From NCBI GenBank assembly GCA_019115995.1, contig DXCL01000021.1, positions 1-48,986 of the forward strand: a stretch of 48,986 nucleotides of DNA. The letters run 5' to 3'. Below the pieces are notes generated by a model. That model did not search any database. It worked only from the letters and a program-made list of their open reading frames with translations, and had not been told where the DNA came from. Made by a program: the position numbers and the translations under genes. Shown here one piece after another: positions 1,356 to 29,139 of the stretch; the stretch's first letter is position 1; every line of letters starts with the position of its first letter. The DNA is from Candidatus Borkfalkia avistercoris. Lineage in GTDB: Bacteria > Bacillota > Clostridia > Christensenellales > Borkfalkiaceae.

Positions 1356-1566
1356 CACACTTTCCTCGCGCAAAGGCACTGCGGAAAGTCGTGATTTTGA
1401 GAGACAACCGCCGTTCACCGACACAAGGTCGGCTCTGCGGCGTTTTTCTCTCTGCGAAAATTTTTAAGGGCTTACCTATTAAAGCAATTTTCGCATTCAC
1501 TCTTTTTCGGTAAGCCGCTCATCGCGGCAAATCGGGGGCTTTTTCCGAAAATGCGATTTTCGGAAA
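1356..1566 (+). repeat. Five-hairpin repeat, copy R1
   Basis: The unit has five hairpins in order. Hairpin I pairs CAC-ACTTTCC (1356-1365) with GGAAAGT-C-GTG (1383-1393), with one bulged C. Hairpin II pairs GAGAGA (1399-1404) and CGCCG (1409-1413) with CGGCG (1438-1442) and TCTCTC (1447-1452). Hairpin III pairs TGCGAAAATT (1453-1462) with AATTTTCGCA (1486-1495). Hairpin IV contains GCCGC/GCGGC (1514-1518, 1524-1528). Hairpin V pairs TTTCCGAAAAT (1542-1552) with ATTTTCGGAAA (1556-1566). It is inverted relative to R2. Function is unknown; see the findings. Confidence 0.75.
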
Positions 1567-1594: not shown

Positions 1595-1804
1595 AAAAAG
1601 CAAAAACCACGCTTTTTGCTTTTTCACTCAATTTGGCAACGCTTTGCCTTATGGGAAGAGGGTGAATTTGCGCCCTTGTATATTATGTGTGCCCTTGTAA
1701 AGGGCGCAAAGAGCGGAGAAAACGCCGTCAGCCGTAAGGCGCGCGGGGCGGTGTCGCCCTAAAATTCACGGCGTTTCGCAGTGCCTTTGCGCGAGAAATG
1801 CGTG
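1595..1804 (-). repeat. Five-hairpin repeat, copy R2
   Basis: This is the same architecture as R1, read on the minus strand. Hairpin I has CACG/CGTG ends (complement of 1801-1804 and 1767-1770). Hairpin II is degraded: its inner CCGCC...GGCG pairing remains but the outer arms are mismatched. Hairpin III is a perfect 11-base stem, TTTGCGCCCTT with AAGGGCGCAAA (1667-1677, 1700-1710). Hairpin V is a perfect 12-base stem, AAAAAGCAAAAA with TTTTTGCTTTTT (1595-1606, 1613-1624). The unit begins 15 bases past the stop of the DUF1292 gene, just as R1 begins 8 bases past nrdG. Confidence 0.7.
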
Positions 1805-7245: not shown

Positions 7246-7884
7246 CTATTTGGTTCCGAACAGGCGGTCTCCCGCGTCTCCGAGCCCGGGAAGGATATAC
7301 CCGTTTTCATTGAGCTCCCTGTCGAGCGTGGAAACGTATACGCGCACGTCGGGGTGCTCGCGGGCGATCCTTTCGATGCCCTCCGGCGCGGCGATGATAG
7401 ACATCATCTTGATGTTCCTGCACCCGCGCTTTTTCAGAGCGGCGAGGGCGTCGCATGCGGAGCCGCCCGTCGCGAGCATGGGGTCGACGAGGATCACCGT
7501 TTTGTTTTCAATGCCCTCGGGAAGCTTGCAGTAGTACTCCTGCGGTTGCAGAGTCTCCTCGTCGCGGTACATGCCGATATGCCCGACGCGCGCGGTGGGG
7601 AGCACCTTGTGCACGCCGTTGACCATGCCCAGCCCCGCGCGCAGGATCGGCACGATGGCGATGCTCTCTTCCGGAATGCGGTACTGCACCGTTTTTTCGA
7701 GCGGCGTTTCCACTTCTACGGGCATGAGCTGCACGTCTTCCATGCTGACGTAAGTCATGATCTGCGTGATCTCCTCCACGAGCTCGCGAAATTCCTTCAT
7801 GCCCGTGTTCTTATCTCGCAGAATGGATATTTTATGCTTGATCAGCGGGTGATCGAAAATAAAGATGTTGCTATGATCTGTCAT
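7246..7884 (-). CDS. upp: Uracil phosphoribosyltransferase
   Basis: A 212-residue enzyme that makes UMP from uracil and PRPP. The PRPP-binding motif is VILVDPMLATGGS. The conserved block IVPILRAGLGMVNGV and the uracil-binding C-terminus NENGYILPGLGDAGDR are intact. The start MTDHSN at 7884 is chosen because the longer frame reads through the end of uraA and GGAGGAAGG lies just upstream. It overlaps the uraA stop by 14 bases, so the permease and enzyme of uracil salvage appear translationally coupled. The gene order uraA-upp is the reverse of that in many bacteria. Confidence 0.95.
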   Translation of the reverse strand: MTDHSNIFIFDHPLIKHKISILRDKNTGMKEFRELVEEITQIMTYVSMEDVQLMPVEVETPLEKTVQYRIPEESIAIVPILRAGLGMVNGVHKVLPTARVGHIGMYRDEETLQPQEYYCKLPEGIENKTVILVDPMLATGGSACDALAALKKRGCRNIKMMSIIAAPEGIERIAREHPDVRVYVSTLDRELNENGYILPGLGDAGDRLFGTK

Positions 7885-17658: not shown

Positions 17659-18105
17659 TCACAGCGTTTCCGCCTTGCCGCCGGCCTTCTCGATCGCTTC
17701 TTTTGCGGAAGCGGAGAACTTGGCCGCCTTGACCGTAAGCGCAGCTTTCAGCTCGCCCGAGCCGAGCACTTTCAGTCCGCAGTTGTCTTTCACCTGCTTG
17801 GCAAGCTTGTTCGTCATGACGTATTCGTAATCGACTACGGTACCGTCTTCTGCGCTTGCCAGCTGAGAGAGGTTCACGATGACGTATTCCTTTTTGAATT
17901 TGTTGTTGAAACCGCGTTTGGGGAGTCTCCTGTGGATAGGAGTCTGACCGCCTTCGAAGCCCGGCCTTACGCCGCCGCCCGAACGCGCCCACTGGCCTTT
18001 ATGGCCCTTGCCGCTCGTTTTGCCGAGCCCGGAGCCGATGCCCCGTCCGAGCCTTTTGGCGGGAGTGTTCGCCCCGATCGCGGGTTGAATGGTATCGATT
18101 CTCAT
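17659..18105 (-). CDS. rplO: 50S ribosomal protein L15
   Basis: A 148-residue protein with the classic Gly/Arg/Lys-rich N-terminus ([21 protein letters not shown], Gly-rich extension reaching into 23S rRNA) and [17 protein letters not shown]. The C-terminal half is the globular domain ending KAGGKAETL. It begins 12 bases after rpmD. Confidence 0.98.
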
Positions 18106-28390: not shown

Positions 28391-28592
28391 CACGCGTTTC
28401 TCGCAAAAGAGATGCTGCGAAACGCCGTGATCTCAGGAGACACCGCCGCACGCCTTACGGCTGACGGCGTTTTCTCCCTCTGCGCGCGCCTTTTAAAGGC
28501 TCCCGCACCAATATGCGCGCGCATTCACCCTCTTCCCGTAAGCCTTACGGCAATTTGGGTGCGCCGGCGCAAAAGCGCGGTTTTGCTTGCGC
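28391..28592 (+). repeat. Five-hairpin repeat, copy R3 (first of tandem)
   Basis: Hairpin I: CACG (28391-28394) and CGTTT pair with AAACG, bulged C, CGTG (28420-28429). Hairpin II: GGAGA/TCTCC (28436-28440, 28473-28477) around CGCCG/CGGCG. Hairpin III: TGCGCGCG/CGCGCGCA (28481-28488, 28516-28523). Hairpin IV: CACCC/GGGTG (28526-28530, 28557-28561). Hairpin V: GCAAAA/TTTTGC (28569-28574, 28581-28586). Relative to the rplJ transcript it is antisense, but the stems would fold on either strand. Confidence 0.75.
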
Positions 28593-28610
28593 AGTAAATA
28601 TGCATTTTCT

Positions 28611-28814
28611 CACGAAAAATGTTTTAAGCTGATAAAACATTTTTCCGTGATTTTCAGGAAAACCCGACGGACGCTTGCGCTCCGCGTCGGCGTTTTCCTC
28701 TTTGCGCGATTTTTTAGGGCACGCCATAAGGAATCGCGCAAATTCACCTTTCCCCGAAAACCAAAGCATTGGCAAACAGGGTGCGCTCGCAAAAAATACG
28801 ATTTTCGCTCGCGC
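28611..28814 (+). repeat. Five-hairpin repeat, copy R4 (second of tandem)
   Basis: Same order of stems as R3 but with mostly different stem sequences. Hairpin I is CACG plus AAAAATGTTTT paired with AAAACATTTTT, one bulged C and CGTG (28611-28649). Hairpin II is AGGAAAA/TTTTCCT with CCGACG/CGTCGG (about 28656-28700). Hairpin III is TTGCGCGATT/AATCGCGCAA (about 28701-28741). Hairpin IV is CACC...GGGTG with CCA/TGG inside. Hairpin V is an A-run/T-run stem flanked by GCGC. R4 is the most diverged copy, so it is the best witness for compensatory change. Confidence 0.75.
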
Positions 28815-28834
28815 AGGATCAATACAATTTTTCT

Positions 28835-28985
28835 CACGCGTTTCTCGCAAAAGAGATGCTGCGGAACGCCGTGATCTCAGGAGACACCGCCGCACGCCTT
28901 ACGGCTGACGGCGTTTTCTCCCTCTGCGCGCCTTATAAAGGCCGCGCCCTTCCTTTCCCCTGCGCCCACCCGAACGGGTGCGCGA
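28835..28985 (+). repeat. Five-hairpin repeat, copy R5 (third of tandem, shortened)
   Basis: Hairpins I and II are nearly identical to R3: over about 98 bases I count one difference (GCGAAACG versus GCGGAACG). The later part is shortened: GCGCG...CGCGC stands for hairpin III, and a compact GCGC-CACCCG/CGGGTG-CGC hairpin (about 28962-28983) stands for hairpin IV. It ends next to the L10 attenuator. The R3/R5 similarity points to recent duplication or conversion across R4. Confidence 0.7.
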
Positions 28986-28992
28986 TGCAAAC

Positions 28993-29026
28993 AAAAAAGT
29001 CCTTATACCGCGCAGGTATAAGGACT
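28993..29026 (-). terminator. L10 attenuator terminator
   Basis: A perfect 12-base stem (28998-29009 with 29015-29026, arms AGTCCTTATACC and complement). On the minus strand it is followed by a T-run at 28993-28998. It lies between the L10 leader fold and rplJ, the usual place for an attenuator. Confidence 0.85.
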
Positions 29027-29039
29027 CGCATGCGTAAAA

Positions 29040-29139
29040 ACAAACGGTCTTGCCTTATTACCTCGGCGGGCGTTTCCATTAAACCTTGCGGTGCCAGCTT
29101 TCTGCGGTAGGGATATTGATGCTTTCGCAATTTCAATGC
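29040..29139 (-). promoter_or_regulatory. L10 ribosomal protein leader
   Basis: The transcript leader before rplJ contains GCAGAAAGCTGGCACCGCAA and, further on, CCCGCCGAGGTAATAAGGC. These resemble the L10 leader family of Bacillota, which binds L10 (with L12) to control rplJL by attenuation. The intrinsic terminator at 28993-29026 follows it directly. Assignment is by recognisable motif and position; a covariance-model match was not run. Confidence 0.8.

Follow-up and report, generated by a model that had tools for sequence, protein, structure and literature searches.

BOX elements of Streptococcus pneumoniae are modular intergenic repeats with stem-loops, the non-autonomous ends of IS200/IS605-type elements form hairpins with extrahelical bases, and the attC sites of integrons are folded sites with extrahelical bases that lie behind a stop codon and carry the core RYYYAAC / GTTRRRY. 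REP, BIME and REPIN sequences are described as high-copy extragenic palindromes with inverted neighbours and ordered clusters, situated mostly behind coding regions (PMC3733652; PMC3116915). The repeats of Candidatus Borkfalkia avistercoris analysed here have high copy number, inverted neighbours in extragenic space and ordered clusters in common with REP and REPIN sequences. However, a REP or REPIN unit measures 20-40 bp, whereas the units described here extend over about 200 nt, as delimited by a profile, and contain five hairpins. The REP/REPIN tags GTAG and CGTC, looked for at the foot of hairpin I only, were represented by no GTAG and a single CGTC among the 94 of 176 copies (167 of them distinct, some DNA having been fetched twice) with a recognisable foot, and while REP and REPIN sequences have a RAYT (Y1) partner, the Y1 family does not track copy number here. 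Membership of the REP family thus fails on tag, size and transposase. BOX elements, which we liken to these units by description, are likewise modular stem-loop repeats but belong to another host, and the units here differ from them in having five fixed hairpins and a V-to-V pairing at a palindrome. Extrahelical bases are shared with IS200/IS605-type ends, but the genome under study has no full Y1 transposase and its units show no replication-strand bias; compared with attC, the units have five hairpins, housekeeping neighbours in constant order and the foot GTTCAC. Literature searches listed no paper that describes this repeat, and we favour a new modular REPIN/BOX-like repeat as the best reading of the family, in keeping with two of the alternatives, a REP/BOX-like repeat or a non-autonomous mobile element, that the original prediction had offered.

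The window, by which we mean the whole analysed stretch of 48,986 nucleotides, contains two groups of units. R3 (28391-28592, plus strand) is a full unit recognised in sequence, folds, profile and covariance model, with hairpins I at 28391-28429, II at 28436-28477, III at 28481-28523, IV at 28536-28550 and V at about 28561-28592. The same lines of evidence, with a single fold, define the full unit R4 (28611-28814, plus strand; I 28611-28649, II 28656-28699, III 28701-28742, IV 28761-28772, V about 28783-28814). R5 (28835-28942, plus strand) matches profile positions 3-122 only and is a truncated unit made of I (28835-28873), II (about 28880-28921) and a degenerate start of III, without IV and V. 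These three units are situated between an L10 leader with its attenuator (28984-29125, minus strand; Rfam RF00557, 57.2 bits), which lies upstream of them on the minus strand, and rplJ, encoding ribosomal protein L10 (27841-28365, minus strand; NCBIfam NF000955.1), whose ribosome-binding site adjoins the I end of R3; rplL and rplA are found in the surroundings. Expression of rplJ from its leader requires transcription through R3-R5, so that these units are not terminators in that direction. By reading, the stem I types of the rplJ array follow the order A-B-A in this genome and in relative G001, B-A-B in G055 and A-A-A in G050.

At the left end of the window, R1 (1356-1566, plus strand; sequence, fold, profile and comparison with G055) and R2 (1595-1804, minus strand; sequence, fold, profile and covariance model) are full units that face each other and occupy the whole space between convergent open reading frames ending at 1348 and 1819. 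The hairpins of R1 lie at 1356-1393 (I), 1399-1452 (II), 1453-1495 (III), 1514-1528 (IV) and about 1542-1566 (V), and those located in R2 at 1767-1804 (I), about 1665-1711 (III) and about 1594-1626 (V). The centre between them (1567-1594, assigned to no strand) holds the palindrome ATTATTTAAATAAT and was delimited from the sequence and from the centres of other facing pairs. The gene preceding R1 encodes an NrdG2-type activating protein, of which a further copy with 85% identity lies on another contig (C17) of the same genome. Positions 1-1581 of the window are 99.3% identical to contig C5 of G055, though the L10 of the two genomes differs by 10%. Similarly, the end of contig C22 of this genome (L170, 9271-10388) is 99.4% identical to G055, its contig C34 has that region at 88%, and the C22 end near G055 also falls inside a repeat cluster. 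Judged from these identities, the R1/R2 junction may be an assembly chimera of two strains, with a contig end at the repeat. A transfer of the gene preceding R1 with a border in the repeat is not claimed, as a two-strain chimeric assembly explains the data equally. Since the left end of the window possibly comes from another strain, R1 and R2 are unfit to serve as sole evidence, and the repeats themselves look able to join contigs from different strains.

The five-hairpin order that had been assigned to all five units therefore stands for R1, R2, R3 and R4 and fails for R5, and both the quoted stems of R1, R3 and R4 and the bulged C of stem I, which lies on the 3' side of the stem in sequence and folds, were confirmed. 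Against 200 dinucleotide shuffles, R3 folded with a z score of -2.9 on the plus strand (equalled by one shuffle) and -4.5 on the minus strand, and R1, R4 and R2 scored -5.9, -5.3 and -3.4 on the strand tried. Rfam returned the L10_leader as sole match above the gathering score in the whole window, and a permissive search of the five loci at E up to 5 gave nothing besides it above gathering.

Stems III and IV co-vary. In an alignment of 133 copies, which was fitted to the model, covers III and IV only and consists of related copies that are not independent events, 94.5% of cells were paired compared with 64.2% in shuffles, and the covariation score was 0.598 compared with 0.145 in shuffles and 0.03-0.11 in slid alignments, both values lying above all 500 shuffles. 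Two-sided changes occurred in 14 of the 15 pairs (equalled by 2 of 500 shuffles), the number of further pair types was equalled by 3 of 500, and sliding the partner by 1-3 columns lowered paired cells to 27-49%. In line with this, an unfitted MAFFT alignment of 27 copies had two-sided changes at 6 of 7 predicted pairs of III, and in a 24-copy alignment, where I, III and IV were considered, 17 of 21 pairs had them.

Wobble pairs are scarce. Among standard pairs of the two stems we counted 23 G.T in 1692 (12/1187 in III, 11/505 in IV) alongside 30 A.C mismatches (15 in each stem), a ratio of 23:30 with no G.T excess, whereas a matched control, the 12-pair L10 terminator stem from 20 genomes of the genus, gave 22 G.T, 0 A.C and 2 other mismatches in 235 cells, so that G.T made up 9.4% of its standard pairs, with 11 of the 22 at one pair. 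Anchored counts for stem I gave 3 G.T and 2 A.C in the 48 of 79 units that could be placed in the own-genus set, and 4 G.T and 12 A.C in 27 of 31 units of the sister genus (G115). RNAfold predicted G.U shares on the two strands of 5.1% and 5.5% for the units and 5.3% and 6.7% for those of G115, with 13.2%/11.6% for whole L10 leaders, 7.5%/13.5% for 10 tRNAs and 13.3% for shuffled units; as the tRNAs run the wrong way in the strand comparison, only the low level of the units on both strands counts. A first mismatch count (35 A.C, 6 G.T) was discounted, most of its A.C being an A that faces the bulged C in misregister, together with one subtype of V, and the controls of the strict mismatch method were too small (4 G.T and 2 A.C in L10 leaders, 1 G.T in tRNAs). 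The scarcity of G.T and the lack of an excess over A.C imply that the two sides of a pair change together and symmetrically with respect to strand, which is a signature at the level of DNA. Of the RNA or single-stranded DNA fold proposed in the original prediction, RNA from one strand is accordingly disfavoured, leaving single-stranded or cruciform DNA, or both strands.

A blastn search with R3 located the unit at 21 places in this genome, and the covariance model of III-IV, built on 27 copies and 98 positions, gave 58 matches in it at E up to 0.01. Among 41 genomes, 24 had matches to this model: 23 belong to the genus (25 searched, this one included) and one to the 16 from other families, the latter marginal with an E of 0.007. 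The genome and relatives search that had been proposed thus uncovered a widespread family, with 0 to at least 101 matches per genome of the genus; the lowest non-zero count was 2, and the III-IV model found none in the genus members G002 and G005. A family-wide search under stricter filters, with 34 candidates scored, detected matches in at least 27 of 121 genomes and at least 5 of 18 genera, and an exact-pattern scan returned 14 stretches, all in records of uncultured Clostridia or Candidatus Borkfalkia stercoripullorum. Phage and plasmid collections queried with window positions 28391-28814 at E 1e-5 gave no match, and one exact pattern matched none of the viral contigs; a phage or plasmid source is therefore unsupported. 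Some units (L022 at about 585-735, L209, L210) carry two further hairpins in an inserted module of about 125 nt between II and III; inserts of 115-131 nt there split single units into two matches.

Clusters in Borkfalkia follow the order (>)n(<)m, in which V ends point inward at an AT-rich palindrome, and in the sister genus units are single or in tandem. Neighbours within 300 nt were facing in 18 cases, tandem in 18 and back to back in none in this genome and G055, 13, 25 and 2 in G012, and tandem in all 7 cases in G115, tandem counts including single units that were counted as two matches owing to the II-III insert. Accordingly, I-to-I neighbours numbered 0 of 36 in this genome and G055 and 2 of 40 in G012. 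All 18 facing gaps in this genome and G055 measured 3-7 nt in profile terms and lay at a palindrome like that between R1 and R2. At L015 (about 630-850), a small open reading frame that we take to resemble a helix-turn-helix regulator lies between mutually facing units. Remnants of the unit start (TTCACG and about six further bases, repeated) are stacked at outer cluster edges at L171 (about 7700-7730), L165 (about 17860-17875) and L241, and their sequence looks as if units had replaced one another at the cluster edge.

Placement relative to genes, which were called by hexamer statistics, is sharp. Overlap between a unit match and a called gene never exceeded 30 nt (140 matches). For 52 clusters flanked by genes to the left and right, outward I ends gave 42 values at stop codons, 38 of them within 25 nt with a median of 1 nt, and 34 values at start codons, 22 of them at 6-19 nt, in the region of the ribosome-binding site; in the subset whose match begins in I (40 stop and 31 start values) the medians are alike to the eye. 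All 21 values for outward V ends in the own-genus set put them 37-1400 nt away from the nearest gene. In G115, 35 of 37 units had genes on both sides, with I at a stop codon in 24, all in sense behind the gene, and at a start codon in 11; 20 of 22 measured distances to the stop fell between -16 and +8, and 4 distances to the start were within 13 nt. When the 200 nt beyond V were scanned in a simple way for terminator-like hairpins, 7 of 31 units gave a hit in G115 and 34 of 79 in the own-genus set.

Occupancy of these places differs between species. The rplJ site was recovered as 30 loci from 36 matched genomes (40 searched). Of these loci, 5 have three units, 1 has a single full unit and 5 have a single partial one (that of G008 ends at a contig end); the other 19 gave no unit at E up to 0.001, but some are truncated close to the gene or, by eye, retain remnants. 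Assessed by length and by reading rather than by profile, the spacers at three further places behave similarly: the dnaA/mnmG anchor distance is 453 nt here, 495 nt in G008 and 463 nt in G012, and 65-248 nt in the other seven of nine; that of dprA/topA is 462 nt here and long in 2 of 6 others; and that of the murF-like gene and ddl is 446 nt here and long in 4 of the 5 others in which both anchors lay, the two G055 pieces having one anchor each. At three sites the flanking genes are neighbours whether or not units lie between them, and cassette shuffling was rejected for this unchanged gene order. By eye, flanks had no clean target-site duplication, and the empty sites and spacers are too diverged to show insertion. 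All genomes are draft metagenome assemblies, this one 88.6% complete, and in it Y1_Tnp was represented by one fragment below the cut-off and no full transposase. The Y1_Tnp search gave none in drafts G001, G003, G009, G016 and G024, with 34-85 unit-model matches, while drafts G002 and G005, where units are absent, have 5 and 3; a RAYT/Y1 mobiliser was rejected, its presence not tracking copy number. With replichores guessed from local GC skew, 19 of 43 units in this genome, 34 of 54 in G012 (p 0.08) and 20 of 36 in G115 shared an orientation with respect to replication, and lagging-strand transposition was set aside for lack of bias in all three.

Certain irregularities are conserved while the stem between them varies, namely the C bulge of stem I and, in V, the TT/C step above the GCGC foot and the GCGTGG-like apex. 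The bulged C is present in 27 of 31 G115 units, as found by a search that requires it, and a strict pattern detects the TT/C step in 76 of 176 copies, some of the others being V types without the step. By reading, the better conservation of loops than of stems, already seen in the window, extends into another genus. Perfect arms of at least 12 bp occur in 7 of 176 copies, and in three such V hairpins (G055 C5, G012 C5 and G012 C3), whose sister copies by reading show the usual arm, the sequence looks as though one arm had served as template for the other. Template switching can, according to a published account, produce two-sided changes in a single event (PMC8794818), and both the scarce G.T and the V arms rewritten into the complement of the other arm fit this process. 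Although the shuffle tests confirm that the stems co-vary, it was hence too strong to conclude selection for the fold from changes on both sides. Selection is better argued from the bulged C, the TT/C step and the loops, because correction of one arm by the other would erase them, yet they persist.

Taken together, we give about an even chance to the view that the repeats are a family of modular intergenic DNA repeats, non-autonomous and mobile or recombining, whose hairpins act as DNA. The hairpins would be extruded or single-stranded, some enzyme, probably not a REP-type Y1 transposase, would recognise the loops together with the C bulge in stem I and the TT/C step in V, template switching between hairpin arms would renew complementarity and so yield two-sided change without G.T intermediates, and units would settle at the ends of coding regions and next to existing units. 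A bolder version, in which this is a new kind of mobile DNA that is recognised by its five-hairpin fold, places its I end itself at the stop codon or ribosome-binding site and uses an enzyme unrelated to the known REP transposases, is a tentative proposal that we consider doubtful. Several results weigh against mobile DNA: the searches gave neither a mobilising enzyme nor a clean target-site duplication, the replication-strand bias that IS200/IS605-type single-strand transposition would predict is lacking, and placement within a few nucleotides of stop codons is unusual for a transposon. The sense orientation of 24 of 35 G115 units behind genes is instead what one would expect of a cis-acting RNA element of mRNA ends, in which hairpin I, immediately after the stop codon, protects or punctuates the 3' end, or the unit contributes to the shape of 5' leaders, for example in rplJ. 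Such an element would also account for the I ends at stop codons (38 of 42 within 25 nt; 20 of 22 at -16 to +8 in G115), the similar loops in another genus and the terminator-like hairpins beyond V (7/31 and 34/79); however, the sense strand has no wobble excess, whereas the L10 terminator has one, and I ends in Borkfalkia lie at start codons too, with 34 values versus 42 at stops, so that we consider this explanation unlikely.

We judge it rather unlikely, too, that the repeats are useless palindromes that spread long ago or by ordinary recombination and whose arms are kept complementary by template switching. The two-sided changes without intermediates and the rewritten arms are what this published mechanism (PMC8794818) would leave behind, but the bulged C (27/31 in G115), the TT/C step (76/176) and the loop words persist though correction would erase or not protect them, and placement at gene edges is sharp. 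That placement, with I ends at gene edges and outward V ends never closer than 37 nt to a gene (21 values), would suit an insulator or bidirectional end signal held by selection while deletion removes other spacer DNA, an improbable explanation given congeners without units at the same sites and 2 of 25 genomes of the genus without any match. Hairpins with extrahelical bases immediately behind stop codons further recall folded, integron-like recombination sites, but at three sites the flanking genes stay together regardless of units, which argues against cassette shuffling there, and the foot GTTCAC misfits the attC core; we see very little chance for this case.

A functional RNA is usually considered proven by covariation, but here, in dozens of copies per genome and in several genera, covariation comes without wobble pairs or strand preference, which allows selection and correction by template switching to be told apart on real data. 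The sharp placement of the units at gene edges calls for a way of targeting or retaining them beyond those known.
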